From Artemia franciscana (Eukaryota > Arthropoda > Branchiopoda > Anostraca > Artemiidae): a stretch of DNA of 64,000 bases. Below, piece after piece: positions 4,741 to 52,030 of this stretch. The translations under genes were made by a program, and so were the position numbers. The notes under the pieces were generated by a model, which did not search any database, was not told the DNA's origin, and saw nothing but the letters and a program-made list of their open reading frames with translations. Each line of letters begins with the position of its first letter. Positions within the stretch are counted from its first letter, which is position 1. The stretch lies in assembly GCF_032884065.1 (NCBI RefSeq), contig NC_088872.1, positions 32,460,917 through 32,524,916 of the forward strand, read 5' to 3'.

Positions 4741-6524
4741 TCCGAACATGACGACCTTTCTCAATACCAAATGCTATTTGTAAACTTGGGACAAATGGCA
4801 TAACTTAAAGCCCTTGCCTGAGGGCTGTGAGGGTGGGGGGAGATAGCATGATGGATATAGTTACTGGACTTTTAAACTATGCTGAACTAAGTGGGAATCT
4901 GAAAATTTGAATGGATGATTTTGGGGAAATGACTGGAGTGGGGGGGGGGGGTTGCCCTCCAATAACTTATAACTCCTAAAAAGGATACTTAGGAAGGGAA
5001 CTAGAGTTTTCAATTTCCAATCGAATTGGCCCCCTCCAAAGACTGTACAGCCAGCCCATCCACAAAAATCATCTAATTTCTTTTTTCAATGGACTACTTG
5101 TAAGAGTTACTGCCCTTGTCCCAGGGGTTGGGAGGATTTACCAACTCCTGAAATATAATTATTTGACTTTTAAGCCATTTTGAACAAAATGGTTATCATA
5201 ACGTTTTGATCAGATACATTTGGGGAAAAAGGGCGTGAGCTGGGGGGAAGGCCTGGTTACCCTTCGATCGCTTTTGGCTCTCAAAGAGGGCACTAAAACT
5301 GTCCATATCTAATCGAATGAGCTCCCTCCACCATCCTTTCCATAAAAGCCTTATATGTTAACAATGGGCAACTAGCATAACTGACAGCCCTTGCTCCAAG
5401 GCCTGGGGGGAATTATCAAACCCAGAACAACAGTTATTTGACCTTCGGACTATTTCAAATAAAATTGTTAACTCAAAATTTGAATCGGAAGCATTAAGGG
5501 GAAATAGTGGTGGGGGTGCCCTCAAATCACTTTTGACTCTTAAGAAGGGAACTAGAACTTTCGATTTAAAATCGAATGAGCCTTCTTCGAAGTTTATACG
5601 AACATTTCTTATATGTTAACAACGGCCAACTTGCATAACTTACAGCCCTTGCCCTACGGGCTGTGAGGGGTTTTGTCAACCCATAAGGCATAGTTCTTTG
5701 ACCTTTGAACTATTTTAAACAAAATGGCTGTCTATAAATTTTGACCGTATACATTTGGGTAAAGAAGGCGTGGGTGGCTAGTTTGAGTCGACATTAGTAG
5801 ATATTGAAAAGATTGCACAAAATTGTAACATTTCGAGCATTTTTGATTCTTAAAAGAGAACTAAAACATTCAATTTTCAATCAAATCAGCCTCCTCCAAA
5901 GTTCATATGACCACCTCTTCCATAAAAACCTTATTTTCCCCCTGTGCGTAACTTTCAACTCTTGTCCCCAGACTCTTGGGGGTTGTATCGACCTTGAATA
6001 TTTTGAACAAACTGGCTATCTTAAAATTTCGATTGTATACGTTTGGGAATAAAGAGGATGTGGAGGGGAGGCTAGTTGCTCTCCGTTCACTTTTGACTCT
6101 AAAAAAGCCCCTAGAACTTCTGATTTCCAATCGAATGAGCCCCTTAAAGTTTAATAGGATCGCCCCTTTCATAAAAACCTTATATGTTAATAATAGACAA
6201 CTAACATAACTTAAAGCCCTTGCCCTGAGGGATGTGGGGGAGTTGACATCCCAAAAGACATAATTAATAGACCTTTCAACTGTGCTGAACTAACTGGCTG
6301 TCTCAAAATTTTGTTTGAATGTGCTTTGGGAAATGATTGGCGTGGAGGGGGGGTGCCCATCACTTTTGACTCTCAATAAGGGCACTGGAATTTTCTATTT
6401 CCAATCAAACGATCTCCTTCCAAAGTTTCTACGACAATATTCCTTCATTACGAAGTGCCTTGGTCAGAAAATAAATAGTGTGCCCAATTCGCTCTTTACT
6501 TAGGCAGCGCCATTGCGCTGCCTA
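4740..6524 (+). repeat. B-type tandem array (about 300-bp units) ending in a hairpin
   Basis: About six diverged units, each with an ACAGCCCTTGCCC block, a G-rich stretch, CAAAGACATAGTTA, AACAAAATGGCTATC, a GGGG-rich stretch, a CCCTCCAATCACTTTTGA block and CTAGAACTTTCAATTTCC. The array directly follows the A array and stops at a perfect 10-bp-stem palindrome at 6501-6524. Short open frames here are accidents of the repeat. Confidence 0.7.
6501..6524. repeat. Terminal palindrome of the B array (10-bp stem, 4-nt loop)
   Basis: TAGGCAGCGC, loop CATT, then GCGCTGCCTA: a perfect stem. Homologous palindromes sit at the corresponding end of the B repeats at 28333-28356 and 50536-50559. Confidence 0.8.
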
Positions 6525-6529
6525 CGATA

Positions 6530-7385
6530 ATTTATGTTTGGTTTAGGTTTGACTTGATTATTGAATTCGTTTTAACTTTGAAGTATTATTTGACTTTTAG
6601 ACTCGTCTTTGGTTTAACATATCTCTTTACTTTTGTTTGAAAGACTTCCTTTTGAGAAAATGTACTTTTAAATTAATATCTGTTTGTTTTTAATTGACAT
6701 TGATTTTTTATTTTGAATCAGAGTAAATGTTAGCAATGTTTTTTTTATAACTTCAGAATTAAAATTTTGGTTGGCTAATTATGTATTTCTGTCAAAATTT
6801 TGTGGTGAGATTTAGTGTAAGTTTACTATAGATTTTTGGATGGATGGGCCTCCTATGTAGAAATAGTCATCTTGACCCAATCATGTTACAACCTAGATTA
6901 AAGACGAATATTGATCGACCGTTTCATTTACTGATTTTTGTCTTATTGAGAAAATCCCTTAAATTTTTTACTTTTTGACCAATACTTAATTTATCTACTG
7001 GTTTTGTTAAAATTGAAAGATTATAAGATCATTTATTAAAAGGAGGTTATGATCTGTTGTTTAAAAATAAAAAATAGGACTACAAAAAGAAACACAACTA
7101 CGTTTATTTTTGGTGAAGTTCCTTTGGCTTTTAAACGTTAATTGATGTGTCCTCAATGCCTAGAATTTTAAGCTGTTCGGCATAAAAATGAATATTTTAT
7201 CTCTAAGAATCAATACAATTGAATTTCCTTCAAACATTTGTCTTCCTTGAAAAGTTGCCTCCTCCCCCCAAAGAAAAAATAATCCAATTGATCCCCCTGG
7301 TCGATATTCCATCGAAGTTTTGTGTCCTTTGAATTGCTAATTTTTATCATGCTCCTATCCTCAGATCTTGCAGATACGTCATGTT
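6530..7385. other. AT-rich sequence without recognised gene
   Basis: The left part (6530-6660) shares a TTTGGTTTAA...CTCTTTACTTTT pattern with 30600-30720, so it is probably another dispersed repeat. The remainder shows nothing I can name. Confidence 0.4.
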
Positions 7386-7700
7386 GATACCCAGTATGGA
7401 TAGAGTGTAGTTGGATTTAGTTCAGTATCTCCCTCAACATTCCCAGAAAGTTATAACTTAGAACCCTTAGCCGCTTCAGATATATTGCAAATTAGCCCTT
7501 TTGACAAACTGGATGCACATAGTGTTTTTTATTTTGTTAAAAATACCCTGAAATCTTTAATTTATTACCCTTAGCCGATACTGAGACATTGCAGATGCAC
7601 CTTTTTGACAACATGGACCCAAATCCTGTGTTTTAGCATTAATACCTTTATACATTCCTGAGATATTGCATAAACCTTATTCTGACAACCTGGACGCATA
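7385..7700 (+). repeat. A-type repeat, partial units lacking TAG runs
   Basis: Two truncated A-type units with the GATATTGCAAATTAGCCCTT and CATAGTGTTTTTTATTT blocks, but without the trinucleotide segment. Confidence 0.5.
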
Positions 7701-7725
7701 GACTGTTCTTTGATTTAATTAAACA

Positions 7726-7935
7726 AAAAAAAAAAAACAACAAGTTTTTTTAAATGAAAGTAAGGAGCGACATTAAAACCTAAAACGAACAGAAATTACT
7801 CCGTATATGAAAGGGGCTTTTCCTCCTCAACGCCACACTCTTTACGCTAAAGTTTGACTCTTTCTCTTAACTGTACTTTTTAAAACAGTAAAAAACTTTA
7901 GCGTAAATTTTTTCGTTTTTTTTTTGTTAAATTTC
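7726..7935. repeat. MITE-like left arm, copy 2
   Basis: Carries AAAGTAAGGAGCGACATTAA, then GAACAGAAATTACTCCGTAT and CTCTTTACGCTAAAGTTTGA. It matches the left arms of the 2.1-kb and 14.7-kb copies and ends in an inverted CTTTAGCGTAAA block at about 7893. Confidence 0.6.
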
Positions 7936-8219
7936 TGGAACATTTTTGAATGAACGCATGTTTTGATCTTGGGTCTCCACACATAAATAATTAAAACAAA
8001 TTTGCATATTATTTTCTTTGGCTAAATGGATTTTTCATAGTTTTAATCGGAAGATTTTGAGAAAAAAGGAGCGAGGGAGGAGGTCTAGTTGCCCTCCAAT
8101 TTTTTGATTACTTAAAAATGTAACTATAACTTTTAATTCTTTACGAACGTTTTCATAAGTAAAAAATACACGGAACTTACGAAGTAACTTACGTAGCGAA
8201 CTTCTGTATTCGTATGTTT

Positions 8220-8475
8220 TTATCGCGTATATGAGGGGGCTCACCCCTCGTCGATACCTCGCTCTTTACACTAAAGCTTAAATTTTGTCCCAATTCCTTA
8301 AGAATGACCCCTGAATCGCAAAGGCCGTAGAATAAGTAGTTGTAATTACTAAAAATACTTTAGCGTAAAGAACGAGGTATTACGAGGAGGTAAACCCCTT
8401 TTATGCGTTATAATGTCTGTTCATTTTAAGTTTTAATGCTGCTCCTCACTTTCAGTAGAAAAATTTTTTCATATT
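8220..8475. repeat. MITE-like inverted repeat, copy 3
   Basis: The left part has CGCGTATATGAGGGGGCTC and CTCTTTACACTAAAGC. The right part has CTTTAGCGTAAAGAACGAGG, and GTTTTAATGCTGCTCCTCAC at its end. It lies immediately upstream of the C-rich linker, as copy 1 does. Confidence 0.55.
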
Positions 8476-8489
8476 TATTTTTTTTAAAT

Positions 8490-9310
8490 AATGCTAGAAA
8501 ATCCTGCGCCCCCTCCATTGAAAGTCTCTTCTTCCATGAGAAATTCCTCCATGGAAAGATCCTCCCACGTAACCCCTCCCCTCAACTCTCCCCCCCAAAC
8601 CAAAAAAATCCCCCTGAAAACATCTGTATACTTCCCAGTCACCATTACTATATGTAAACACAGTTCAAAGTTTGTAACTTGCAGCCCCTCCCACGGGGAC
8701 TGCGGGGGAGTGAGTCGTCCCCAAAGACATAGTTATTAGTTTTTTCGACTATGGTGAATAGAATGGCTATCTCAGAATTTTGATCCGGTGACTTTGGGGA
8801 AAAATGAGCGTGGGAGGGGGCCCAGGTGCCCTCCAATTTATTGGTCACTTAAAAAAGGGCACTAGAACTTTTAATTTCCGTTAGAATGAGTCCTTTCGAG
8901 ACATTCTAGGACCAATGAGTCGATACGATCACCCCTGGGAAAAAAAAAAAAATAAATAAACACGCATCGGAAATCTGTCTTCTGGCAAAAAAAAATGCGA
9001 AATTCCACATTTTTGTAGATAGCAGCTTGAAACTTCTACAACAGGGTTCTCTGATACGCTGAATCTGATGGTGTGATTTTCGGGGGTGTTTTCCCCTATT
9101 TTCTAAAATGAGGCAAATTTTCTCAGGCTCGAAACTTTTGATGGGTAAGACTAATCTTGATGAAACTTATATATTCAAAATCAGCATTAAAATGCGATTC
9201 TTTTGATGTAACTATTGGTATCAGAATTCCATTTTTTAGAGTTTCGGTTACTATTGAGCCGGGTCGCTCCTTATTACACATTCGTTACCACGAACTGTTT
9301 GATTCAACCT
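8490..9310. repeat. Composite repeat: C-rich linker plus B-type unit, copy 2
   Basis: A better preserved version of 2476-3700: short GGAAA/CCTCC-type units, a TATACTTCCCAGTCACCATT block, one B unit (8650-8950), then a tail ending in GAGCCGGGTCGCTCC and a small hairpin (TTCGT-TACC-ACGAA, 9281-9294). Part of the linker also recurs at 17190-17340. Confidence 0.6.
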
Positions 9311-9399
9311 GCCTTGAAAGCTTCAACATAATGCTTTCCTTCGTTCGTTGAGGTATTTTAGATACGTACTTTTGATACTTTTGATACGCAGATGGTCTT

Positions 9400-10800
9400 T
9401 CTATTTAGTCCAAAAAGCCCTGAAAGTTCCAATTTAATTCCTCAAGCCATACCTAAGATATTACAAATACACCCTTTTGACAACCTGCACACATACAGGA
9501 TCATTTAATTTAGTTTTACATCCCCTAAAATTCCCTGTAAGTTTTGCCTTAATGCCCTTTAACTTTTTGGACACCCGCGATCATAAATGCCCCCTATTAC
9601 CTAATAATAAAGCTAATATGTAAGCAATGGGAAGCCTGCATAATTCGCCGCCCTTGCTCAAATGCTTTGGTGGTCAAATCATCCCCCAATACTTCAAGAT
9701 AGCTATTTTGTTCAACATAGTTAAAGGTCCAGTAACTATGTCTCAGGGTATGTCAACCCCCCAAAGCTCTCGGTGAAGTTTTGTAGGCTGAGCAATCGGC
9801 CCATTGTCTACATATAATATTTGCTATTGGGAAAAGAGGGTAGGTTGGACAAATATATAAAAAGGACCATAGACAGTCAGGTTAAACTTTCAGAGAATGT
9901 TGAGGGGAGTGTTGAATTAAATGAGGTCACGTTATGTGCATTTTAAGTGAACGTTAAGAGTGTAACTCAAGAATAACTGAGGTTATCAAGCTATAACTTT
10001 AAGGGAATGATGAGGGGGGTGATCAGTTTACCAAAAAGGTAATAGTTGCAGGCTACTACTAGTACTACTACTACTTCTATTACTACCACTTCTGCCGCTA
10101 CTGCTACTGTGACTACTATTTTTGTAGCGACTACCACTAAAGCTGAGGATATTCAGATGAAGATTTGAGAAAATGTTAAGGGAAAAGTTTAGCTAAATCA
10201 AACCAAACTAAGTACACGTAGATTGTCAAAAGGCCGTATCTCAAGAATGGCTTGAGGTTTTAAATTGGAACTTTCAGAGAATACCTAGGGGGAAGATCAA
10301 TCGGTAAAAAGGAATTTGTGCACGCTACTACAGCTACTACCACTACTATTACTCCAAATTCTCCTTGTATTGTAACTACTACTAGGGCTAAGTGCTAATT
10401 GAAAAATTTAGGAAATGTTGAGGCTTAAGTTGCACTAAATTCAAACACACTATGAGCATAAAGAATAGCAAAAAAAGATAACAGCAATATCATACCAACG
10501 GTTTATAATATTGAGTTGAAACTCTTAGGGTTTTATGAGGGGGGTGTTCAGCTGACCAACAGACAATATGTTCATACTGCTATTGCTGCTAGTACTACTG
10601 TTACTGCTGTTAGTACAACTACTAATCCTACTACTACAAATAAACTAACTATTATTACTACTATTACTGTGACTACTACTACTTCAGCTAAGTTACAGGG
10701 TATGAAGGTGAAAATTTGGTGAAATACTGAGGGGTAATTTAAACTAAATCAGAACACACCATGTCTATGCAGGTTGTCAAAAGGGTATATCAGCAATATT
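9400..10800. repeat. A-B / inverted B'-A' palindromic array
   Basis: Forward A (9400-9560) and B (9560-about 9685) blocks are followed by a B block in reverse orientation (about 9690-9800; AGCTATTTTGTTCAACATAG). Three to four reverse A units with CTACTACTA runs follow (9850-10800). The orientation flips at about 9.69 kb. Confidence 0.6.
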
Positions 10801-13893: not shown

Positions 13894-14226
13894 GTTTTCA
13901 AAAACTCTTTTCTCCACGGGTAGTTTTAGGGAAGAGGGGCTGAGAGGGCACTCGCCCTGGGCGCAAAAATTTGTAATCATTTTGTATTGTTTTTAAAACT
14001 GTATCTTTGTTAAAATAAAGTAGAGGTCGTAATTGGCAGTAAGTTACTTATCTACTGTAACACATATATAATAATACTCAATACTTACTTTAAGTATAAG
14101 CAAACTGAAGTGGGCAGAACCACTACTGCTTTCCCCTGAAGGAAAGCATATGCCCATTGACTATCGGGATGGGGACCCCTCTTACCCCTTCCCCCAATAA
14201 AAATGCTGTGGTTACGTCCCTGGGCA

Positions 14227-14683: not shown

Positions 14684-15006
14684 AAAAAGTTTTTTCAACT
14701 TAAAGTAAGGAGCAACATTAAAACTTAAAACAAACAGAAATTTTTACGTATATGAGGGGGTCACCCTCTCCTCAATAACTAACTCTTTACACTAAAGTTT
14801 TTTTAAACTTTAAAAGGGTTTATTATCCTAATCAAACGGCCTTGGTGATTCAGGAGTCATTCTTACATAAACAGGAAGAAAAATCAAACTTTAGCGTGAG
14901 GAGCGAGATATTGAGGAGAGGGAGACATTGCTCATATGCATAGTAATTTATGCTCGTTTTAAGTTTTAATGTTGTTCCTTACTGTCAGTTGAAAAAAGTT
15001 TTTTTT
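14684..15006. repeat. MITE-like inverted repeat, copy 4 (best preserved)
   Basis: Arms of about 130 bp in inverted orientation: AAAAAGTTTTTTCAACTTAA...GTAAGGAGCAACATTAAAAC at the left, and its diverged reverse complement at the right, ending GTTGAAAAAAGTTTTTT. Internal paired blocks are CTCTTTACACTAAAG and CTTTAGCGTGAGGAGCGAG. The total of 323 bp and the absence of coding capacity fit a non-autonomous DNA transposon. Confidence 0.7.
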
Positions 15007-15029
15007 TAATTTTTTTTCTGATCGTTTTT

Positions 15030-17148
15030 ATGGCACTTAGGTATTAACCAAGTGACATATAGCAATCGCAAATTCTGTCGGTCTGTCGGTCCCGGTTTTG
15101 CTACTTTGGGCACTTCCAGGTAGGCTAGGACGATGAAATTTGGCAGGCATATCAGGGACCGGACCAGATTAAATTAGAATATTAGAATAATTCTGAAAAA
15201 TTAGAAAAAATGAGGTATTTTTAACTTACGAACGGGTGATCGGATCTCAATGAAATTTAATATTTAGAAGGATATCATGTCTCAGAGCTCTTATTTTAAA
15301 TCCCGACCGGATCTGGTGACATTGGGGGGAGTTGGGAGGGGGGAACCTAAAATTTGGAAAACACTTAGAGTGGAGGGGTCGGGGTGAAACTTGGTGGGGG
15401 AAATAAGCACAAGTCCTAGATACATGATTGGCATAACCACACCAGATCCGCTCTCTTTGGGGTAGTTTGGGGGGGGGGGTTAATTCTGAAAAATTAGAAA
15501 AAACGAGGTATTTTTAACTTACGAACGGGTTACCGGATCTCAATGAAATTTTATATTTAGAAGGATATCGTGCCTCAGGGCTCTTATTTGAAATTCCGAC
15601 CGGATCTGGTGACATTGGGGGGGGGGGGGTTGGGAGGGGGAAACCTAATTCTTGGAAAACACTTAGAGTGGAGGGATCGGGATGAAACTTGGTGGGAAAA
15701 ATAAGCACATGTCCTAGATACATGATTGACATAACCGGAACTGATTCACTCTCTTTGGGGCAGTTGGGGGAGGGGGGCTAATTCTGAAAAATTAGAAAAA
15801 ATGAGGTATTTTTAACTTACGAATGGGTGATGGGATCTCAATGAAATTTGATATTTAGAAGGATATCGTATCTCAAAGCTCTTATTTTGAATCCCGACCA
15901 GATCTGGTGACATTAGGGGGAGTTTGGGGTGCGGGAACCTAAAATCATGGAAAACGTTTAGATTGGAGGGATCGGGATGAAACTTGGTGGGAAAAATAAG
16001 CAGAAGTCTTAGATGCGTGATTTACATAATTGGAACGGATCCGCTCTATTGAGGGGGGGGGGTTAATTCTGAAAATTAGAAAAAATGACGTATTTTTAAC
16101 TTATGAAGGAGTGATCGGATCTTTATGAAACTTCATATTTAGAAGGACCACGCAACTCAGATCTCTTATTTTAAATCTCAACCGGATACAGCGTAATTGG
16201 GGGGGGGCAGTTGGGGGACCGGAACTCTTAGAAAATACATAATGCGGTGAGATCAGGATGAAACTGAATGGGAAGAATAAAAACCTGTCTAAGATACGTG
16301 ACTGACATAACCGGACCGGATCTACTCTCTTTGGTGGATTTGGGGGAGGGGGGGGGGTAATTTTGAAGATTGAGGTATTTGTAACTTACGAAAGGGTGAC
16401 CAGAGCTTAATGAAATTTGATATTTAGAAGGATCTTGTGCTTTAAAGCTCTAATTTTAAGTTCCGACCAGAATCTGTGACACTGGGGGGAGAAGGAGGGG
16501 GAAACCGGAATTCTTGGAAAACGTGAAAATTGGGGTATTTTTATCTTACGAATAGGTGATCGGATCTTAATGAAATTTGACATTTAGAAGGAATTCATGT
16601 CTCAGAACTCTTATTTCAAATCCCGACCAGATCTTTTGACAAGGGGGAGTTGGAGGGGGAAATCTTGGAAAACACTTGGAGTGGAGGAATCGGGATGAAG
16701 CTTGGTGGATAGAATAAGCAAATGTCCTTGATACGTGATTGACGGAACCGTACTAGATTTACTGTCTTTGGGGGGGAGGGGTTCAGTGATTTGGTGAGTT
16801 TGGTGCTTCTGGACGTGCTAGGACGATGAAAATTGGTAGGCGTGTCAGGGAGCTGCACAAATTGACTTGATAAAGTCGTTTTCCCAGATTCGACCATCTG
16901 GGGGGCTAAAGGGAGAGGAAAAATTAGAAAAATTAGGTATTGACAACTTACGCGTGGGTGATCGGAACTTAATGAATTTTGATATTTAGAAGGGCATCGT
17001 GAATCAGAGCTCTTATTTTAAATCCTAGCCGGCATTAAGCCTCGTATTTTCCTTTTAAATCAATCTATTGATTCATAGAATTTTGTTAGAGCTCATACCA
17101 TATAATCTCTTGGCTCTTTAGCTCTTCTTGCCTCGTCACAAGTGCCAT
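15030..17148. mobile_element. Non-autonomous element of about 295-bp tandem units with 9-bp terminal inverted repeats
   Basis: The ends are ATGGCACTT (15030-15038) and AAGTGCCAT (17140-17148), exact reverse complements. The left end also forms a small hairpin (CACTT...AAGTG). A leader follows (GTCTGTCGGTCCCGGTTTTG, 15080-15100). Diverged repeats then begin near 15187, 15481, 15779, 16063, 16358, 16525 and 16918, each with GAGGTATTTTTAACTTACGA, GATCGGATCTCAATGAAATT and TATTTAGAAGGATAT blocks. Spacing is 284-297 bp, except the last two, which look deleted or rearranged. A second leader-like block recurs at about 16800. There is no transposase. The architecture recalls Helentron-derived or bivalve 'pearl' elements, but this is inference. 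Confidence 0.65.
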
Positions 17149-18693: not shown

Positions 18694-19119
18694 TTAGTTC
18701 AGCCTGAAACTCCTCGTGGGTTTTACTGGGATCTTCAGTTTTTGCAATTGATGTTTTGTTGTCGTTTCATCAGAAAAGTGGTGAGTTTTCTTCACAAGGT
18801 TGTCCCCTAGGTCGTTTTTGAATACCAAGAAAACAGTTGGGCCAAGATTACTTCCTGGGGATACTTTTAATAAGACTGGGTGCTCTTTTGATATGAAGCT
18901 GTCAAGGACAACTTGCAATGAGCATTGACGATCAAAGTCAGCAAGCACCTCAAATAGTCGATCATCAACTCCATAGGCTTTCAGTTTACAAAGAAGTCCT
19001 TTGTGCCATACACGATCAAAGACTTTTGCAATGCCAAAGGATAGAAGGCAAACATCATGCCCCTGAGAAAGGAGCTCAATCAACTCTTGATACTTCGCAA
19101 TCAGACAGTCTACATTCAC
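18694..19119 (-). pseudogene. LINE reverse transcriptase palm fragment, broken
   Basis: Contains RT motif A remains (FGIAKVFDRVW), the following KLKAYGV and motif B (SPGSNLGPTVFLVFKNDL). The catalytic YADD-type box is FSDE. The two catalytic positions are changed and the frame ends soon after. Confidence 0.8.
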
Positions 19120-20360
19120 AGGACAGCAGACCTATTGGATGATACGATCCTACATTAGTAAGGTCAGACTCTGCCTTTGGAACAAGGACCACATGAGCAA
19201 TTCTTCAGGCTCTTAGGAACGATCCCGCTGCAAAGTATTTTCTATACAGAGAGGCAAGAAGACCAGCAAGTTCTGGGGCATGTTTTTGAGGATGAGATTG
19301 GGAATCGTGTCAGATCCTTAAGCTTTAGTGACATCTAGCTGGCTTAATAGTTTGAGCACCTAACTAGTAGTTATGTTAACGCCGCTGATTTCCGCATCTG
19401 TTCAGGGTGAAAAAGAGGCAGGGGAGCCTCCGGCGGCACCAAATTGGGAGACCTTTGAAAAAACTTATGAAACAGTATCTGCCTTTTCCTAGCCTGACTG
19501 GATCATCGTCCCTTCAACATGAAGCGAGGGAATTGATATTGGTTTAGATGACGTTAGAACTTCTTTGACGACCCTCCACCACCGCTTTGCAGGGGCACTT
19601 TTTAGTTTATCTGCAAACTTGTTTTTATAATCGGATTTTGCTTGACGTGTGGCTTTAACAGGCTTGTTCCGGGTACTAATAAAAGTTGCCTGGTCCTCAT
19701 TGGACTCAGACAAGTGCCATTTCTTGTGAGCCTTCTTTCTGCCCCTGGTTGCCTTTCTACATCCAACATTGAACCAAGGCTTATCTCGAGATGAGACTTT
19801 TATTGTTTTTCATGGGAAGAATTGCTCAATGGCTTCCGTAATCGGCTTAAGCGCCGCTGCTTCACGGAGGACCTCTTTTGAAAATCTACTCCAAGGCTTT
19901 GCCGATGAAAAATTTCGCAGACAATTCCAGTCTGGGCTGTAATACTGCTTGAAGATCTGCTCATATTTTACAGGTGGAGGTATTTTGAGATTTTCACAAG
20001 ATTTAGCTGTCAGATTTTTGCTGGCAAAAAATAGCTTTTAAAAGTAAAGGCATTCAAATGATTAGTTAAGAAGAGATTAAGACGGGATGATCCATAAGGG
20101 CCAATATAAGTGTCAAATTCAACAGGCTATTCTAGACTATAAGCAAGACTCAGGTTTAGCAGAGCTAAGCCTTCCATATCAATCGTACGATTTTTCAACC
20201 AGTGGCCGTAATGAGTGTTCAAGTTTCCTTGGATGATTATACTTGATTTAGGGAACTTTTGCTTTAATCTTCCAGCAATCTTCCAGATGTTCAGTTATTT
20301 TCATCTTTCGTGGGCTAGAGACTGTACCAATAACCAATGATTTTTTTGGTAGGTGTACTC

Positions 20361-20654: not shown

Positions 20655-20664
20655 AAAATTGTCT

Positions 20665-27369: not shown

Positions 27370-29240
27370 TGCACTCAAAACTTTTTCAACATTCCCCTCA
27401 ACATGCCAGAAAGTTTATTTAATACTTTCAGTTGTTCTTAACATATTGCAGATGTGTCTTCTTGTAAAACTGGATGCACAAAGTGTCTTTTTATTTAGTT
27501 GGAGATGCCTCTAAACATTTCCCACACAGTGTCTCAGCAGAGACCATCAGTCCTCCTGTAGATATTGCTGGTATGTCCATTTCACAACCACTAAAGGAAA
27601 AAACTGTTTTTTGATTGTGGTTGGCATTCTTCTCAATATTTCTTTAAAATTTGACCTTAATACTCCAAGCCTTTTCATATATTCAGGATTAAATACACCC
27701 TCTTCTCTTGATAAAAAGTCTTATGTGTGAACAATAGGTAACTTGCATTTCATATAGCCATTGCACCAAGGGATCGGCTTGTGAACCCTGGGGGCATAGC
27801 TATTTAGCCTTAGGGCTGTTTTAGGTTAACAAGCTACCCCAAAATTTTGATCTAATGCATTTGTGGGAGAAAATGGCAGTTGAAAGAGGAAGTCTGGTTG
27901 CCTTCCAATTACTTTTTATTCTTAAAAAATGAACTAGAACTTTCAATTTCCAATCAAATGAGCTTCCTCCAAAGTTTATACTACTATCCCTTCCATAAAA
28001 ACTTGTATTTTGACAATGGGCAACTTGCATAACTTACAACCCTCTCCCTGGGGGCTGTGGGGGGTCTTGCGAATCATTAAGGCATTGTTTTCAGCCTTTG
28101 GATTATATTGAATAAGATTGCTGTGTCAAAATTTTGATTTGATGCATTTGGGAAAAAAAAGAGCATGGGGAGCATAGTTGCCCTCCAATCACTTTTGACT
28201 CTTACAAAGGTGTTAGAACTTTCCACTTGCAATAAAATGAGCCCCAATCAAAGTTTATGCAACCAACCCTTCCATTTGAAATGCATCTGGAAAAATTGTG
28301 ATAAATCTTTGAAGCCTTATGGATCTTTAGTATAGGCAATGCTATAGCATTGCATCTGAAACAATTCTGTTCCATGTACTTACTGCATTGTTTTCTTCTT
28401 TTTTTTTCAGTGTTTTTTGAGTAGTTAAGACTTGGACAGGGAGCTGGGAATAAGTTTAGTTTTGCAGCATTGGTAAATTCTAATTACCACAACTTGAACT
28501 TATCTTATTTTTCCACCAATGAAGAGTTTTACTGTAGTCATTTAGCTAAATCTAAAACAAAGTGATAAAGTGGGCTACCATTTCTCTGCTATGCCCCTTT
28601 TCACTTCTCTCCCCCCAAAGACATCCAATAAAATTTTAAGATAGCCATTTTGTTCAACATAACTGAAAAGTCCAATAACTATGCCTCTGGGGATGACAAG
28701 ACCCCAGACAATTAGGGCTGTAGTTTGTAAAATTTGTTCACTATTTAAATATGGGATTAGTGATTTGGAAAGAGGGGTGAGTATGTCAAATTCTTTTGTT
28801 TCAAAAAGTGTAGGGGTATTAAGTTGAAGCTCATATTGAACCTTAGGATGGGGGGGGGGTGTCAAGCTAAATCAAATATGTTTTATTCATGTAGTCTGTA
28901 AAAAGGACATACCAGCAATATCCCAGAGGTGGTGTAGGGTGTTAAGTCAAAACTTACAGGATGCAATGAATGGAATGTTCAGCCAACCAAAAGGGAAAAC
29001 GTGTTTGCTACTATTACTACAACTAGTATGGCTGCTACTAAAATTAGGGGTACTAACGTGAAAATATTAGAGGATTTTGATGGAGAAATTGAACTAAATC
29101 AAAACACTATGCACATGCAGTTGCAAAAGGACATACCAGCATTGCCTTATCAACAGCTTTGAGTATTATGTTGGAATTTTCAGATATGTTGATGGGAAGG
29201 GTGAACTAACCAAATTGCACTGTGTACATACTGCTTATAC
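27370..29240. repeat. A-B / inverted B'-A' palindromic array, second example
   Basis: Forward A-type units (27370-27715), forward B units (27720-28310), a spacer with the 18-bp perfect palindrome at 28336-28353, a reverse B unit (28580-28770) and reverse A units (28870-29240, with CTACTATTACTAC). The order mirrors the 9.4-10.8 kb locus. Confidence 0.6.
28336..28353. repeat. 18-bp perfect palindrome at the end of the B units
   Basis: GCAATGCTATAGCATTGC equals its own reverse complement. It aligns position by position with the 6501-6524 hairpin, with the stem preserved by paired changes. Confidence 0.75.
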
Positions 29241-39940: not shown

Positions 39941-39948
39941 CCTTTCAG

Positions 39949-43000: not shown

Positions 43001-44552
43001 AGTGAGTACCAGCTATAAGGCTTTTTTTTTTCTTTTCTTTTTCCATTACATTTTAGTTAGTGTTCACTTAGAAAAGCACCAAATAAATCGATAAAAATGG
43101 TAGAAAATTTCCAGGGAGTTCTCAATATCTTGTTCAGATTTCCTTTCAAATAAGATCTGAATTCCATTTCACCTTTTGTAAATTTCGTTTAATTTCTCGA
43201 AAGATGAAATAAGCTTTAGCTTGAACATACATTCCTCGAGGATTCTTTTTTTGCCCTGAGTTGTGCTATTTCTGTTCGAAAAACTTAGAAAAATTTCATC
43301 CGAAGGGGGTTCGTCAATTCGGACCAAGTCACACCATAGAACCAAGCAAATTTGGTCAAATTTGCGAAGAGATTGTCATAAACCACGGTTCGGTATCGTA
43401 TAAAATCTACATATCAGGACTAAAAGTAAATTCAGCAAATTTCTTGAACTCCATCAAAAGATTCTTGTGGACCGGAATTCTGTGAAAACTATGAAGAATG
43501 AATGCACTCTCATTTTTCAGGCCTATTTTCAGAAACGTAACCACAGGCCCTTAGCCCATCTTTTAGATATCCCTGAAGGAGAATGGCATGCTCACTTTCA
43601 ATCCAAATCTTTGTCTCCAAGCACTGTCTTCGAATTTCCTGACAGGGAAATCTTGCATCCGCTGTCTCATAGTGGAATCAGGGTGGACTTTTCACGAGCT
43701 TTCCTAACCAAAACCGCGACTGCTAACAGCACTGAAGGATATTGAGGGATGACGCCCCTTGAGGAAATTATAGCCTAGTAAACGATACAGCATTTGAGCA
43801 TAATTCTGTTTGATAGATAATTATTCTGTGTTTTGTCTGTTTTGGTGTTTTTTTTTTTTTTGGGGGGGGGGGCTGAAATACCTCTTCCTAGCTGATTTAT
43901 CTATTATGGGTTGCCTTCCTGTAGTAGCATAATATTTGTAGGCATGAATATATAACGAGTCGCAGGTATTAGGCTCCAGATTGTCTGTGCGGGATTTTGA
44001 CTCTTGTTGATAGAAGCATCGCCAAGGTTGGAAAACCTTGTTGTGACCAAGATGGGCCCAGGATTGCACCAAGCCACCATTCATACTGGAAGTCCCAGGG
44101 GCTTCTTGCTGTTTGGTTCTAAGCCTGCTTAAGCGCTTCGTGTAGATTCGAGAAGATGTGTTAGTCCCCGTCCTTTACTGGTTCTGGGACCATTGCTTTT
44201 TCCTGAGGCCATAATAATTTCAACGATTTAAAGAATATAAAAATCGCAACTTGGAATGCTATAACGTTAAAAAATAACTACCGTATCGACATTTTAACTG
44301 GCGAATACAGACGCTTCGAACTGGTCTTTTTAAGAGTTCTACAAATTCATATCCTAGGGATGGAAAAATGAAAGTGGGTGATATATTTATATACTCAGGC
44401 AGGAAGGATGGGCTGCAAAGGCTGGGAGTGAGTACGGTTTATGATGAACAAGGAAGCTGCTAAGTCTTGTTTAAGTTGGGAAGGTATTAATAATAGAATA
44501 CTAGTCGCTCATTTTATGACTAAAATATGCAGGGTATCAATCATAATAGTGT

Positions 44553-44589
<37 letters not shown>

Positions 44590-47500
44590 GTATATTTAAA
44601 AACTATCGTAGCATAGCTAAATTAAGTTTTGTACAAAATCATACATTTAAACAAAAATCATACACTACAACTCAGCATTGAAAATTGATGTGAAGAAAGG
44701 CACAAATGAGTTGGCGTAACGATTAGTTCGTACTTTAGGGGGTAGAAGTTTATTATGTAACCGAGTTCGGCTATTGGAGAGGGGCTGATTTGGGCAGTAG
44801 TGATCGGTGGCTCTTATTGGCTAGGACGGATTTTCTAAATTGCTGAATAAGGTGTTCAAGCCGGATTTTAAGTGGAGATAAATTTAATTTAGCGAGGGCT
44901 TGATCATAGGGTATGTCGCGGTTTCGGAGTACAATCCTTGTTGCTCTTTTCTGGACGGACTCTATGTCGCATAATAGGTACGCTGTGCGGATAGCAGATG
45001 GACCCCACACCGGGCACGCGTAATCGAGCAACGGGTGAACATAACACATTTAGGCATGGAGAAGACTTTCAGTATTACACCCAAAACGCCTCATTTTGGT
45101 AAGTGTCTGAAGGCTTGCATTAGCCTTATGGACGGTTAAATTAATATGGGCACTGAAACTACAGTCACTAGTGAAAGTTACTCATAAGATTTTTATTTCG
45201 TTCACAATTGGGAAAGGGACTTGAGACATATCTATATTCCGCTTCAGAGGGTTGAAACGAACTATCTTCGACTTGGCTACGTTGATGGTAAGATCATGAC
45301 TTGAGCATTCGGTCTTAAGCTGATCAAATAACTGGTCTGAAAACTGCTTTGTTACGATAGTGTTTTCGACCAGGTAAGCGAACACTATGGACAAATCATC
45401 TGCTGCTGTGGCACCGATTGATGGAGACAGTAGTGGCTTACAGCTACAGGAACAAATAGACGGGATACCAGGTAGAAATGTGGTATTTTAATCAGGAGAT
45501 TTTAATGCATATGTTGGTAGGAATAGCGATAGAGGGTATCCTAGCCTGGATTAATTTGGTGTAGGAAAAGAAAACCGTAATGGTCGCAGACTATTGCAAT
45601 TTTGTAAATATAAAAATCTACCTATAACCAATGCGGTATTTGGTCAAAAAATAGTCCATAAATTAACATCGTGTTCGCATCATGGCAAGACAGCTAACCT
45701 TATTGATTATGTTATTGTAAACAGAAGACTGGCAGGATCGATACAAGGTACTAGGATGTTTAGGAGTGCTATTGTTTATATCAAAAGCAAAGATAACAAT
45801 CTAGTAGTGTTTAAGGTTAATCTAAAGCCGAGATTTGGGAAGGGTAACTACCTTCCGAGAAGCTATAAAGTTGGTAGACTCCAGGATGAGAATTTGAGAG
45901 AAACATTCCAGGAACAGTTGAACATTGAAATGGAGAGTCTGAAATTTGACAGTGTAGAAGATGGATGGAAGAATCTTAGGAAAATAGTTTATGAAGTCAC
46001 TAATGGTGGCTTAGGGAAGAAAGGTAAAATCACAGCTAGACATATTAGTGAAAATGATTTATGTTTAATAAAGAGGAGGAGGAGCTTGTACTAGTATTAT
46101 TTAAGTGATAGATCGTATGGAAGTAATAGGAATGTAAATAAAGTGGAAAAGGCATTAAAATATGAATTAAGGAGGAGTGAAGTTGAGGGCATCAATAAAA
46201 TTGCTGAAGATGTGGAAGATGCAACAAGACGGCATTACAGTAAAATATTGTAGTGGTATGTTAATAAATCGAGAGAGATTAGTCAATCTGGACTGGACTT
46301 AGAATGTGGTCACAATTAGTGATAAGGAAGGCAATAAAGAGAGATGGGCAAAACATTTTGAGAATGTGTTACACCATGATAGGGCCACGGGAAAAGATAT
46401 AGAAAAGGTGGAAAAGTTTGTGACGCTTTGGATATGAAGGAAGATTTATTTTGTGAGGAAGAATTAGTGACAATACTAAAAGGATTAAAACATTTTAAGG
46501 TTCTTTGTGCTGATAGTGTGGTAAATGATATTATTTTAATTATGATGGTTACAAGGTTACAGATAAGTTACTGATGATTATGAATCTTATTTTTGAAAAA
46601 GGGAAGTACCTAGCGATAACCACTTTAATAAGAAAGGTGACAAGAGTGAGTATGATAATTGTAGAGGCATTAGCCTGGTTTCTGTAGGAAGCAAATTACT
46701 TAGTATGATGATACTTTTTAGACTTAGACACGCTGTGGATAAAGTTTTAAGAGAAAGAAAAGTGTGGTTTTAGGAAGAGGAGGGGATGTGTCGACTGAAC
46801 TTTTACACTTAGTTTAACAATTAAGAAGTGCTTGAGTCAGCAAACCCATTTAGTCCTCAATTTATAGATTTAAGCAAATGTTTGATTCAGCTAGTAGAAG
46901 AACTCTAGCAAAGATCCTATTCTTTTATGGTATACCAGATAAATACATTAAAGTGATAAGTGCTATGTACGAGAATAACATTGGTGCAGTTTAGTTAGGA
47001 AGCGATGTTTGTAGCAAGTTTCGTATTAAATCAGGAGTTAAACAGGGTTGCGTCCTAACTCCATTTATATTGCTCATTTTAATGGGTTAAATCCTAAGGA
47101 GCACAGCAAAGGCAATGGGAGAGCACGGAATCAATTGGGGAAGTAAAACTTTCCTAAACTTAGACCATGATAATGATTTAAGCATCCTTGATGAAGGTCT
47201 TAGCAGAATGAGTGGAGTTTATTTTATGTTGTTTTCTTGTGTGTTTTGTACTGTCTTCGTTTTTTTTTCTCTCTGTCCTTTCAAGTGTCATGTTTTCAGT
47301 AAATAAAGAAATATAATTTTTATCCCAGTAATCTGGGCAATATATACATTAGAATAACATAATGTTGAGCTCGAGCAGCAACCAGAGCTCATTTGTCGTA
47401 AAGTTTTGGTAAATTTTAGGGCCTAAAAAAAGAAATACATCGTTTTTAGCTCCTGTAATATTTTCTTATTAATAATGTTATCAAAAGTTGAACCAGTTAG

Positions 47501-50500
47501 CGGAATATTAAGGGAATGGACAAAATAGTGACCAAGTAATAACATGTTGAAACTAAAAACACATCATTAATATATTGAACCTCTTTCCGTCTTAAACTTG
47601 AATAACAAGGCTTATGTGGTTGAGTAAGCAGCACTCTAAAAACCGGTTTGTTTAACTTGGAATGACCCACCATGCTCTTTTCTATGATGATCAGCAGGAA
47701 GTACGCAGATAATTTAACTACCAAATCGATTAATGAAATATTTGCTTTATTGGTTCAAGATCAAAATTTTTTTTGCCAGCGAAAATACTATCTAAAAAAT
47801 CGACCACATTTCGTCAAAAAGTAACAAGAGGTACCACAACTTATTATTTTTAATTTTTTTTTCCTGGTCCGTAAAAACACCTCAAATGGTAGCCTAATTT
47901 TGTTCCATGGGTAACATGGAATTGCGTGCCTTGTTGATCACCCAGGTTTGTTTTATTTCCTTATCTTCATTTTTCCCAATAATTTAGTCTAGTTGCATGG
48001 AACATATCTTAAGAGCATCCAAGACTGTTTTAACCCCTCCTTCCTCCCCCACCCCCTTCTTGGAAGATCAAGAGAATTGTCCATAAAACAAGAATCACCG
48101 CGCTATCAAAGAGCCCAACTTGCAAATTATAAGGATCACCGTGTACACTGTGAGAAGAACTATTTTTTTTTAAGTAATTTTTTAGTAATTTTTGTAATTT
48201 TTTCTATTCTGCAGAATATGACAATTATATGTTCGTCCTCTTTCGTTCTAGGTTAACTTTATCGCGGGATACTAATTTGTAATTTGACTCATTGCTGCTT
48301 CTTCAAGATTAAGCGAAAAAAGAAAATAATAAAACACCTTAGAGTATGGAATATATCTGTCTTTATTTTATTTTCCAGAGTTTTGACGAACATCGCCATT
48401 TAATACATTTTGTTGGGCATAATTCTCTGGATGTTATCAATGAAACAAGGCTATCCACAAACGCAATGTATCTAAAAACAGTGGATAGGTTCAATGAATG
48501 GTTTGTTTCTGCGTTTGTAACTGCTAGTCATGCCAAATTCATAATGCTCCATGATATTAAGAATGATGAAGGGATTAAGAACTTCTTTAATGATGCCTAT
48601 GAACATTATATCAAGGTACGTAAAATACTTATAGATAGTTCGAATCAAGAAAACTACCGACTAGAAAATATTTTCTGTTTAGAAAAAAAAAGAACTATAC
48701 TGTGACCTAGCATTGTTGTGCCTAGTTGCTAATCTGAAACAGGAGTGCCACTCAATTTGAAAAAAATAATCAATGCCAAGCCTCATATAGAGTGGTAACC
48801 AGTATTTATCGAAGCTATTATCAATTCTTTGGTATGGTGGCATTTGGTTTTTAAGGTATAAGGGAACAATGTAAGGTAACAGTGTCCTACCCGAAACAAA
48901 TGGTCACATCTAGCATTTTTAAATTTTTTTTAGAAAAGCAAAAAGCTTTTCAAATTTTTCTCAAGAACAAGGTTTTATTGCAGCTTTTAAATAAGAAAAA
49001 TATCATGTGTTGATGAATTAACTTTAAAAAAAAAAGAAGAAATGTACATTCTATGAAAAACTGGAGAGTTTATTATATACTACTTCTAACTTTTGATTTT
49101 ATTCTAGAGTCCTTGAATAGGACTCTAGAAACACAATAATTAAAATAGGCAACATCCCTCTTTATTAAGCAATAAGAAAAAATGTTTGTCAATTTTTATG
49201 CTTCATCCTAATACAGAACTAGCAAAAAAAAGGTTATACAATAATTAAAACTAAAGACGACTAGAAATTATTTGGTATATTTGGCATAATTTTTTGGCGA
49301 AATTATTTGGCATAATATATATTATATTATTTGGAGGGAGTATATGTGAAGGCTATTCCCTCCTTAATACCACAATTTTTAGCTTAAGTCTGTGAATTAA
49401 GCACAGGGCCAAGTGGAATAGAATAAAAGTATTTCCCATAACATCTCAAGAATAAAAGAGCTGATTGATGTGTATTTGCTTAAAACAATATAAGCTTCAG
49501 TTGTAATGTTTTAAAAGACAATCGGTTACACATTTTTGCACTGACAAGTCCTTTCAGCACAGCTTTATAATTTGTCAGGGTAGAGGGAGGGGGTATCCCC
49601 CTCAAAAACAGTATATTTTCTATCCACTTTAAGCTTCAAAGTCGCTCTTCACTTTCATATGATTTCTTTTTTTATTCAATATCAGTAGAACCCAAGTTGC
49701 AGGACTAAGTACATAAAAATCTCTACAGTCATTACTTCAAGTAAGTAGTCGTAGTTCCGATAATATTATAATTCCTTATTGTAGAGAACAAGTGGCTAAG
49801 GAGGGAGTATCCGCCTAAAATACAGATCAATTTCTGTTCATTTCAAGCTTTAACGTTGCTCTTTACTTTCGTTTGAATTTTTTTTATAGTTAAACCTAAG
49901 TTATACACACGTAAAGATCCCTATATTCATGACTTCAGATAAGGAGTGACTGTTCCGATAGTGACCGAAACTATATGTGCATCGAAGCAACCATTATTTT
50001 ATGCTGATTCCAAGCATTTATAATCTGTTAAGTTTTAACTACCCTAACACTTACCTTAACTTATAGAAAATTGACAGAAACTAACCTAATCTGTTAAATT
50101 TTAATATATTTTAGCATAAGTAAGCTCATATAATTTCATTAAAAGTAGAAAAAGAAAGATGATGTGATCTCAATGAAAATTGCAACATAAATTCTGGAAT
50201 CCTAAGCACCCCAAATTGAATCTTCAGCCCCTATGTAATTAAATGTGAATTTAATATTGGTCGTGTCAATGATGCACATCTCTTTGTCGAAACAAGAAAA
50301 ACTGAAGCAACCCAAAAAGGGAAGTGGTTTTTATGAAAATTCAACATGTATGACAACATGAAAGCTATTATTTGCAAAAATGCAAAGTTCCACATTTTTT
50401 TTCTGTGAAGAAAAGACCCAACAGAGTGTGTTCTTTTTAGTGTTTTGGACGTTTGTTTTTTTCCAAGATGATAGTATCAATTTATATCGTTGATTATCGG

Positions 50501-52030
50501 GAAATATTGGCTCTAGAGGGATCTAGGTAGTATCATAAGCAGTGCAATGGCGCTGCCTAAGTAAAGAGCGATGTGGGCCATTTATTGTCGTAGGAACTTC
50601 GGAAAGAGTTCATTCGATTCGAAATTAAAAGGGCTAGTGTCCTTTTTAATAGTCATAAGTGATTGGAGGGCAACTACCCCCCCCCCATACGCCCACCATT
50701 TCCCCAAACACATCCAATCAAAATCTGAGTTAGCCATTTTGTTCAGAGTAATTGAAAGTTCCAAAAGTTATGTCTTTGAGGATGACTACTCCCCCTATAT
50801 CCCTCAGGGTAAGAGTTTTAATTTATGCTCTGGGCGCATATAAGACATATATATATATAGAAAAGGTGATTGTAAAATTTCCGGAATGGGAGCATTTGAT
50901 TGGAGATCAGGTGTTTTATACCCTTTTTGAGATTCAGAATGATCAGAAGGTGGATACCCCCATACCTTGTATTTTCCCTAAATATATCTGATAGACATTT
51001 TGAGATGGCAATTTGTTGTCACAGAAACTTCGAAAAGAGCTCATTCGATTCGAAATTGAAAGGTCTAGTGCTCTTTTTAATAGTCGAAAGTGATTGGAGC
51101 GCAACTACCCCCCTCCCACGCCCACCATTTCCTCAAACATATCCAATCATAGCCATTTTGTTCATCGTAGTTGAAAGGTACGGAAATTATGTCTTTGAGG
51201 AAGATAACCCCCTGCAGTCCTTGGGGCAAGGGTTGTAAGTTATGCCCTATAAGGCGCATATAAGGTACATACAGAAAGGGTTATCGTATAAACATTTGAG
51301 GGGGCTCATTGGATCAGTGTTTAGAAGTTCTAGTACCCTTTTTATGATTCAGAGTGATTGGGGGGAGATACCCCTCACACACCATGTATACCTAAGTTAC
51401 AGTGATTACGACGACGTGAAAACCGGAGTGAACTCTTGGTTATCGGAGCAGGCGGCAAGTTTTTATCAAGAGAGTATTTTAAAATTGGCTGAGAAGTATG
51501 ATAGGTGTTTGAACAAACTTGGCAATTATGTCGAAAATTAGAATAAAAGATGAATTTTCTGAATATAAATTTACTTTTTTGAAATAATCTTTCGTTGTGT
51601 ACTTATGTTCAAACGAACCTTAATTAAAAACAGCCCGTACCATAGTAGGCTATACAAAATAAGTTTTAGATTTATTCACCCTCGTGGCAATCAACTTAAT
51701 TTCACTAATTTAATAAGACCCTAAAAGGACTTCTTGCTTTTAAATCTACTCCGCTGACATGAGTAATAATTCGTTTTAACTTACAAGTTTTCTAAGACAT
51801 CGACTGGCGATATTCGAAGCAGATCTTTTGAGTTATAGAATGAATAGCAGTCATACTTTAAACTAAGCATGGTTATTCTACCACAACTGACCTTGGATTA
51901 TTACTTCAAGACCTTTCTTTTTTCTTTTTAGTTGTGTATGAATCCATTCTACAACTGTAAATCTTACATTTCCTCGCCGTCTTTTGACAAGAAAATACAG
52001 TACCTTGGAAGGAAATTCCTGGCAGTTTGA
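39964..52030 (+). CDS. TRAPPC2: TRAPPC2 (sedlin), complete three-exon coding region
   Basis: Spliced gene for trafficking protein particle complex subunit 2, a small longin-fold subunit of the TRAPP tethering complexes acting in ER-to-Golgi and Golgi traffic. Coding exons are 39964-40050, 48379-48615 and 51932-52030, giving 29 + 79 + 32 = 140 residues, the length of human sedlin. All joins are phase 0, and both introns are GT-AG. Recognisable blocks are [16 protein letters not shown] near the N-terminus, [20 protein letters not shown] (residues 59-78), [17 protein letters not shown] (83-99), and MNPFY with a C-terminal QYLGRKF. Asp47, Ser73 and Phe83, sites of missense changes in human X-linked spondyloepiphyseal dysplasia tarda, are kept at the same numbers; Val130 is Ile. 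The start has A at -3 and G at +4, and an acceptor lies 15 bp upstream, so a non-coding 5' exon is expected but was not located. The two introns (8.3 and 3.3 kb) are filled with transposon debris. Confidence 0.95.
40832..41346 (+). repeat. Direct duplication of a 170-bp segment in TRAPPC2 intron 1
   Basis: Copies at about 40832-41000 and 41168-41346 share AATCTACCAGCC(C/T)GA, CACTTAAGGGTTTT-like, CCTACAAAAATAAC and GAACTTGCCATTTCA blocks, at roughly 85 percent by eye. The interval between copies suggests a unit of about 335 bp. Confidence 0.65.
41462..42568 (+). repeat. 1.1-kb degenerate minisatellite (about 20-bp units) in TRAPPC2 intron 1
   Basis: More than 50 imperfect units around TAGAAATCAAGACCAA, in variants such as CATAGAAATCCAGACGAATT and CATAGAAATCATAACCAATG. 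Higher-order grouping is visible, since the same variant series recurs (for example near 41630, 41760 and 42300). No coding. Confidence 0.8.
42822..43745 (+). pseudogene. Unrecognised coding-like segments inside TRAPPC2 intron 1
   Basis: Segment 1 (42822-42941) starts with ATG, gives 40 residues including [20 protein letters not shown], and ends at a possible CAG|GTAATC donor. Segment 2 (43261-43485) follows an AG and reads in phase 0 with it: [19 protein letters not shown], then [21 protein letters not shown] one-base slip near 43450 leads into segment 3 (to 43745): [19 protein letters not shown], then [20 protein letters not shown]. Amino-acid composition and codons look coding, unlike the surroundings, but I know no family. 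It may be a decayed nested gene, or a first ORF of the LINE that begins just downstream. Confidence 0.4.
44557..44586. repeat. (GA)15 microsatellite at the LINE insertion junction
   Basis: Thirty bases of GA lie exactly where the plus-strand LINE endonuclease is interrupted and the minus-strand LINE sequence starts. Confidence 0.9.
44600..45415 (-). mobile_element. LINE reverse-transcriptase fragment nested in another LINE
   Basis: On the minus strand, about 45415-45182 encodes [18 protein letters not shown], which keeps the two catalytic aspartates (A-A-D-D), then [16 protein letters not shown]. After a frameshift, 45049-44771 encodes the thumb: [44 protein letters not shown]. The C-terminus is lost and a 3' UTR-like stretch runs to the GA repeat. 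It is 5' truncated and differs from the 17.9-20.7 kb LINE. Confidence 0.8.
45594..46094 (+). pseudogene. LINE endonuclease C-terminus and linker, longest surviving frame
   Basis: 166 residues: [17 protein letters not shown] is just at its start, then [18 protein letters not shown], then a linker with [20 protein letters not shown]. The IDYVIVNRR block is the conserved endonuclease segment of RTE/CR1-type elements. The frame ends at a stop inside the linker. Confidence 0.8.
47210..48345. other. TRAPPC2 intron 1, right part; no recognised content
   Basis: AT-rich. An AATAAA at about 47302 could belong to LINE-related or unrelated transcripts. No coding. Confidence 0.35.
48379..48615 (+). CDS. 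TRAPPC2: TRAPPC2 coding exon 2
   Basis: Acceptor TTTTCCAG at 48371-48378 and donor GTACGT at 48616. Seventy-nine codons in phase 0 carry the most conserved core, beginning [11 protein letters not shown] and ending AYEHYIK. The reading frame stays open into the intron to 48705, but similarity to the family stops exactly at the donor. Confidence 0.95.
48720..50535. other. TRAPPC2 intron 2, left part; decayed MITE arms
   Basis: Two decayed right arms of the MITE family (about 49570-49680 with GCTCTTCACTTTCAT, and 49790-49900 with TTTAACGTTGCTCTTTACTT). A TTTGGCATAATTTTTTGGCG cluster occurs at about 49270-49335. The 50390-50450 stretch resembles the tail of the composite repeats. No gene. Confidence 0.4.
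50536..51382 (-). repeat. Inverted B-type array with terminal hairpin, in TRAPPC2 intron 2
   Basis: About three reverse B units. It opens with the palindrome at 50536-50559, followed by AGTAAAGAGCGA. Each unit then shows GGGCTAGTG(T/C)CCTTTTTAATAG, GTGATTGGAGGGCAACTACC-like, GCCATTTTGTTCA and TATGTCTTTGAGGA blocks. The array ends where mariner-like sequence starts. Confidence 0.65.
51383..51541 (+). pseudogene. Mariner-type transposase C-terminal fragment
   Basis: The last 52 residues of the frame match the C-terminal pattern of Tc1/mariner transposases: [20 protein letters not shown], then [20 protein letters not shown] and a stop. Only this tail is present. The open frame extends upstream to 51242, but that part is B-repeat sequence. 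No catalytic DDD/E residues are included. Confidence 0.6.
51932..52030 (+). CDS. TRAPPC2: TRAPPC2 coding exon 3 (C-terminus)
   Basis: The acceptor follows a 20-base pyrimidine tract (AG at 51930-51931). Thirty-two codons and TGA encode LCMNPFY...[12 protein letters not shown], the C-terminal helix and strand of sedlin. The exon is too short to stand out as an open frame and was found by matching the known C-terminal motif. An AATAAA at 52560-52565 is a candidate poly(A) signal about 530 bp past the stop. Confidence 0.93.
   Translation: MCMNPFYNCKSYISSPSFDKKIQYLGRKFLAV

Follow-up and report, generated by a model that had tools for sequence, protein, structure and literature searches.

The DNA analyzed here, the window, is a stretch of 64,000 nucleotides of the Artemia franciscana genome (contig NC_088872.1, positions 32,460,917 to 32,524,916, forward strand). 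Its G+C content is 0.29–0.44 per 2-kb step (Artemia assemblies are reported at 34.7–34.9%; PMC11492255) and its CpG observed/expected ratio is 0.56. The window holds arrays of a repeat that we call the B unit, with self-match offsets of 282 and 287 bp (417 bp in the array at 50571). A reading of the sequence alone had reported that three B arrays end in homologous 24-base palindromes. We analyzed these palindromes as candidate 3' ends of transposable elements. At 3/3 of the original sites, the B array stops at one and the same phase of the unit, and a right module with a short motif and a hairpin at its end comes next. Two further sites, at 58744–58787 and 9264–9307 (both on the forward strand), had not been listed by the sequence-only reading. 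We name each site by the first nucleotide of its motif (6489, 28321, 50571(−), 58744 and 9264); the hairpins start 12 nt further on.

The positions and the letters of the three palindromes were verified. The first, at 6501..6524 (+), reads TAGGCAGCGC CATT GCGCTGCCTA and forms a hairpin with a 10-bp stem, 10/10 pairs intact, and the loop CATT (DNA fold −12.9 kcal/mol, z −4.95). The second, at 28333..28356 (+), reads TAGGCAATGC TATA GCATTGCATC. Compared with 6501, stem pairs 7-18 (G-C to A-T) and 8-17 (C-G to T-A) have switched on both sides and the loop pair 11-14 has changed from C.T to T-A, which completes a perfect 18-bp palindrome at 28336–28353 (fold z −2.52). So far this agrees with what had been described; however, the outer pairs 1-24 (T.C) and 3-22 (G.A) are broken, and the sequence-only reading had omitted them. 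The third hairpin, at 50536..50559 (−), contains a single C.A mismatch and a single G.T wobble, as had been claimed, and its DNA fold is only −4.2 kcal/mol (z −0.81). Sites 6489 and 50571(−) are the closest pair: their two stem differences both lie in the 3' arm and are both uncompensated. Relative to 6501, the pair-breaking or pair-weakening stem changes fall in the 3' arm in 4/4 cases (two each in 28333 and 50536), which are too few to test.

We mapped the repeats around the hairpins by self-BLAST. The element that ends at 6489 carries a B-unit array at 4775..6440 (+), and a stretch of C units (3840..4780, +; self-match offsets of 246 and 498 bp) lies directly before this array. The palindrome is followed by the tail CGATAA (6525..6530, +), a putative 3' edge of the element, since the 50571 copy ceases to be similar at about this point. 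The end modules of 6489 and 50571(−) are identical at 43/49 positions over 6482–6530, and the alignment collapses beyond, about 5–6 bp past the palindrome. The B units of the reverse-oriented element lie at 50576..51389 (−); the two arrays are 67–71% identical in two matches longer than 300 bp and up to 82% in shorter matches. The identity of the ends spans the last 49 bp, and the rule for HINE subfamilies (HINEs being non-autonomous Helentrons) is at least 80% over the last 60 bp. The sites beyond this pair would count as other subfamilies under that rule. The B units before the 28333 site lie at 27840..28275 (+). An inverted B fragment at 28613–28705 (−) follows this palindrome by about 260 bp, so that two arrays face each other there.

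The two additional sites also lie downstream of B-type sequence. A degenerate B-type unit (58310..58440, +), recognized through an alignment of 58281–58745 to 8801–9265 (z 11.2), precedes site 58744 by about 300–430 bp. When the 58744 flank alone was aligned to the 9264 flank, the match was not significant (z 2.1, below the 2.7 of a random control). A B unit at 8649..8899 (+; self-BLAST and alignment) precedes site 9264 by 365 bp. This unit is part of an element body at 8357..9254 (+) that consists of an A half (A being a second repeat family), the B unit and a long right flank. The body is collinear with 2349–3680 (67–68% identity in two blocks), and there the similarity stops at 3680, about 10 bp short of the motif and hairpin. 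An inverted motif, GTAAAGAGCGA, is present at 2357–2367 (11/11) with a 10/11 copy at 8365–8375, in both cases within A halves upstream of B units. The segment 17164–17337 is a further fragment of the composite element, 77% identical to 8480–8660.

A 12-nt motif, TCGCTCTTTACT, precedes the hairpins and is a candidate 3' subterminal repeat. It is exact (12/12) in three sites, at 6489..6500 (+), 50560..50571 (−) and 58744..58755 (+). The fifth site reads TCGCTCCTTATT at 9264..9275 (+; 10/12). The copy at 28321..28332 (+) is diverged, GATCTTTAGT against GCTCTTTACT, and matches at 8/10 letters when aligned with a 1-nt shift. Hairpins stand behind the motif in the two additional sites as well. The one at 58756..58779 (+) has a different stem, AGGTTGTGGC / GCTGCAACTA, with the loop TATT, three G.T pairs and one A.A mismatch (fold z −2.99); of its 20 stem letters, 8 match 6489, 7 match 50571(−) and 6 match 28321. 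The one at 9276..9299 (+) has a third stem, ACACATTCGT / ACGAACTGTT, with the loop TACC, 5/5 inner pairs and an imperfect outer part (fold z −2.53); here 5, 4 and 3 of 20 letters are shared with the same three sites.

We then asked where the flanks alone would point. Both strands of the window (127,912 positions) were scanned for TCGCTCTTTACT followed by 24 free bases and TGATA, a pattern that uses no stem letters. The four best matches were 50571(−) (17/17), 6489 (16), 58744 (15) and 9264 (14). At the fixed geometry these hold 8, 10, 6 (plus three G.T) and 6 Watson-Crick pairs of 10, against a background mean of 2.71 and a probability of 0.036 for at least 6. Hits 5 to 25 held 2.7 pairs on average, which is the background level, and 5 at most. 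Motif and tail together predict the hairpin for the top four. The motif alone is not predictive, because only 6 of its 30 matches (at least 9/11 letters) have a downstream hairpin with P <0.05.

The folding and covariation analyses agree with a conserved structure. In the DNA fold of each 44-mer, a 4-nt loop was placed at nt 23–26 in 5/5 sites, 28321 included; the loop letters over the five sites are CATT, CATT, TATA, TATT and TACC. MAFFT aligned the five sites without a gap. In this alignment, 84% of the cells are paired (versus a shuffled mean of 60.7%), 7/10 pairs show double-sided changes (versus 2.7), and the covariation score is 0.700 (versus a shuffled mean of 0.234), a value reached by 0/500 shuffles. 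Sliding the partner columns by 1–3 positions gave scores of at most 0.270. Leaving out 9264, the score was 0.650 versus 0.265 (0/500). The stems thus differ in letters yet stay largely paired across sites. Because related sequences may beat such shuffles without any structure, we regard the five-site covariation as good evidence, not as proof. A covariance model built from the three original sites recovered 58744 (E 0.023), whereas the same model without structure did not recover it at its place. A model of all five sites found no sixth copy in the window (next non-overlapping match E 1.2), and Rfam at its gathering score gave 0 matches in the window. Pattern scans for more copies in viral and genome contig collections, from which records of the genome of the window are possibly absent, also gave 0 matches; one of the patterns used on the viral contigs did not exactly reproduce any stretch of the window, so that its zero carries little weight.

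The evidence contained in the three original sites by themselves is weak to moderate. With 12 dinucleotide shuffles of the window as background and loops of at most 8 nt, palindromes as such are mildly in excess: 23 with stems of at least 8 (shuffle mean 13.5, maximum 21), 12 with stems of at least 9 (4.0, maximum 8) and 4 with stems of at least 10 (1.25, maximum 4). A G+C-rich palindrome (stem at least 9, G+C at least 0.5), a class for which 6501 qualifies, occurred once in the 12 shuffles. With the changes per arm placed randomly, the paired changes from 6501 to 28333 had P values of 0.001–0.003 for 12 pairs including the loop and of 0.015–0.046 for the ten stem pairs alone; the ranges reflect transition bias, and the values are uncorrected for the site having been picked as palindromic. 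The column-shuffle control of covariation failed on these three sites, 129/500 shuffles scoring as high. A strong hairpin is not a general marker of array ends, a candidate that we rejected: among ten array edges, P was <0.05 only at 6440(+) (0.017) and at 9697(−) (0.032, a long and imperfect hairpin), and 8/10 had no significant hairpin.

Taken together, the array ending at one phase, the right module, the 11–12-nt motif, the stem-loop and the homology edge match the 3' end of non-autonomous Helentrons (HINE, DINE-1). We consider it probable that the palindromes are the 3'-terminal stem-loops of non-autonomous Helentron-type elements (HINE/DINE-1) and that these elements carry arrays of satellite-like B (and C) units. 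A stem-loop a few nucleotides past an 11–13-nt motif, a Helentron trait, was found in 5/5 sites. The central tandem array, a common though not obligatory trait, is also present, with B units before the end module and C units before B. The hairpin is real and probably functional, and its kind is already known from Drosophila; its most likely function is that of a predicted terminator of rolling-circle transposition.

Several published systems resemble these ends. In the Drosophila elements DINE-1/INE-1, a stem of 7–11 nt lies a few nucleotides past the 3' subterminal inverted repeat (subTIR); its letters vary among species and its structure is kept, the authors remark on compensatory mutations, and they proposed a terminator role in rolling-circle replication (PMC2374699). 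The Artemia elements share with DINE-1 the central tandem repeats, the subterminal motif (13 nt there, 11–12 here), the stem-loop just downstream, and stems that differ in letters with the structure kept. That DINE-1 stems differ between species in this way is already known (PMC2374699); what stands out here is that a single genome has three stem types following one motif inside 64 kb. DINE-1 also features a 5' subTIR, a microsatellite and a TT target, whereas the elements of the window are known from their 3' ends only. The oyster element Cg_HINE (Crassostrea gigas) likewise has satellite-like central arrays, and the 60-bp right flank behind them contains a 3' subTIR plus a palindrome; two successive repeat clusters can sit in one element, like C and B here (PMC7492417). 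Its left flank has a subTIR, an inverted repeat and a microsatellite, in contrast to the elements described here, for which none is definable. HINEs of the mite Metaseiulus occidentalis have subTIRs and a 3' stem-loop in common with DINE-1; their 3' subTIR is likewise accompanied by a palindrome, which lies 8–35 bp from the 3' end (PMC4067079), whereas our homology edge follows the palindrome by only about 5–6 bp. Finally, Helraiser, the reconstructed bat Helitron (Helibat), has a 3' hairpin terminator with an exchangeable stem and a non-exchangeable loop: a stem swap retains about 90% of the activity, a loop change equals deletion of the palindrome, and loss of the hairpin raises read-through (PMC4778049). 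The CTAG end and the 11-nt spacing of Helraiser are absent here. In the literature collection searched, no paper joins helitron, covariation and hairpin, and the Artemia satellite and transposon literature had nothing on these repeats among the matches listed.

A mechanism can be proposed on this basis. The Rep/helicase of an autonomous Helentron, a protein not seen in the scanned open reading frames of the window, would replicate the element by way of a displaced strand. The 3' end would be marked by the motif TCGCTCYTTAYT and the folded stem-loop, and the Rep/helicase would stop and nick there. Since the stem letters would matter less than pairing, place and loop, the stems of source elements would change mostly by paired substitutions, and dead copies such as 50571(−) would gather unpaired changes. 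The ends share a layout: TCGCTCYTTAYT comes first, then, at a fixed distance, a stem-loop whose stem has up to 10 bp and whose loop has 4 nt, and last a short tail after which homology stops. The sites appear to behave largely as the Helraiser data predict: the motif and the loop place are kept, the loop letters are partly kept, and the stem drifts largely in pairs. The unpaired changes in the close copy fit decay after insertion; selection, we infer, acted on the source elements.

A number of results weigh against this assignment. Only five copies are available, all from one 64-kb window. No 5' element end could be defined in the window: the inverted motif, sought up to 5 kb upstream of the five sites, scored 8–11/12 at best, which is not above random (187/300 random 5-kb stretches scored at least 10/12). 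No Rep/helicase was present among the 12 Pfam-scanned of the 25 open reading frames of at least 105 amino acids in the window; an autonomous partner may lie elsewhere. Site 28321 is outside the 25 best flank-only hits listed, and its motif matches at 2/12 letters if no gap is allowed. Site 50571(−) folds no better than its own shuffles, and the hairpins at the array edges before 28333 and 50536 are unremarkable for a 120-nt stretch (P 0.26 and 0.16). The flank-only scan came after 58744 had been met by a scan that used stem letters and 9264 as a motif match, and its tail letters were picked with both sites already seen. When hits are ranked by the left motif first, 58744 is still third and 9264 drops to tenth. 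Shuffling the window 40 times gave five flank scores of at least 14, among them one of 15, so 58744 is firmer than 9264. The latter is the weakest of the five sites: its P value for Watson-Crick plus G.T pairs is 0.15, it is not one of the six motif matches with a significant downstream hairpin (P 0.15 in that test), and it is missed by the covariance models R2 (the three-site model) and R3.

Four other explanations have to be weighed against a Helentron-type end. The sequence-only reading had offered arm-to-arm correction, in which an extruded or template-switched palindrome is rewritten from one arm and paired changes arise without selection. Site 28333, where the loop pair and two adjacent stem pairs have changed jointly to give a perfect 18-bp core, is what such rewriting would leave. 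Yet two changes in 50571(−) have stayed uncorrected, two outer pairs in 28333 are broken, and 58744 retains three G.T pairs and an A.A mismatch; nor does correction explain a constant flank motif, loop place and tail amid the turnover of the stem. We therefore disfavor it as quite improbable. Chance combined with CpG decay, in which unrelated hairpins and mutable CpGs imitate covariation, appears similarly improbable. The pair 8-17 change at 28333 is a CpG transition in both arms and could be decay in a window with so low a CpG ratio, the G>A change at position 17 of 50571(−) is another CpG transition, the three original sites fail the shuffle control, and 9264 is possibly a chance flank match. 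Against this, pair 7-18 lies outside CpG, CpG decay is not enough to account for how much the 58744 and 9264 stems differ, and the top four hits of the flank-only scan all hold a hairpin at the predicted place.

The hairpin could also act at the RNA level, as the 3' tail of a retroposon (a long or short interspersed nuclear element, LINE or SINE) bound by reverse transcriptase. This was raised by the DINE-1 authors for their own element (PMC2374699). In RNA, the four G.T cells of 50571(−) and 58744 would become G-U pairs, and the window contains reverse-transcriptase fragments elsewhere; two C.A cells, however, would favor the other strand, and the hairpin is followed by no poly(A) or microsatellite tail but by a TGATW-like tail and then unrelated sequence. 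To our knowledge, arrays of such units are atypical of SINE and LINE tails. On balance we regard an RNA hairpin as unlikely, if somewhat less so than the two preceding explanations. A canonical Helitron end (5' TC, 3' CTRR, insertion between A and T) shares the 3' hairpin and the rolling-circle logic, and Helitrons are reported to make up 8.81% of the Artemia franciscana genome (PMC11492255). CTRR would be expected about 11 nt past the palindrome, but within 30 nt downstream it is absent in 4/5 sites and present only in 50571(−), at nt 10 and 20; at 28333, the final base of the 24-base site falls within a CTGA. This makes a canonical end very improbable. The earlier proposal that the fold matters, as in Helitron ends, is accordingly supported in its first part by the covariation gained with the two extra sites, whereas for the type of element Helentron/HINE fits better.

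If the palindromes are indeed Helentron-type ends, they bear on how such ends are recognized. The 3' hairpin of rolling-circle elements is held to be a stop signal, and Helraiser experiments have addressed what the transposase recognizes in it (PMC4778049). A genome in which one motif precedes several stem types amounts to a natural experiment that separates what is constant (motif, loop place, tail) from what drifts (stem letters). The elements are also a plausible carrier of satellite-like arrays in the Artemia franciscana genome. More speculatively, motif, loop place and tail may form a fixed code for one shared transposition machinery, with the stem free, maybe even pushed to diversify between families, and the A fold-back repeats may be mobilized by this machinery too; we hold this whole reading to be doubtful. 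Of the five exact occurrences of the 11-mer TCGCTCTTTAC in the window, where base composition alone predicts 0.025, two belong to the A fold-back repeats, in related A pieces at 2367(−) and 8259.

The comparison with "fold-back" ends made by the sequence-only reading applies to this other repeat and not to the B-array palindrome. The A-family fold-back element spans about 310 bp (14690–15005), and variants of the CTCTTTAC motif adjoin CTAAAG in its inner arms. In 13 aligned copies, the A-family ends show a CTCYTTAC-like motif, some with a small TTTC...GAAA palindrome; their geometry is different and we did not use them as support.

The remaining features of the window are of other kinds. An open frame at 48343–48705 (+) matches Sedlin_N (Pfam PF04628, E 2.7e-26) and is probably an exon of a host gene. 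The reverse-transcriptase fragments lie at 18694–19131 (−) and 55675–56067 (−), with RVT_1 E values of 2.5e-6 and 3.9e-5, both under the Pfam curated cut-off. A (TA)111 microsatellite at 56119–56340 must inflate the background palindrome counts of the flank-scan tests. A tandem repeat of 298 bp is present in 4.5 copies at 15188–16489.

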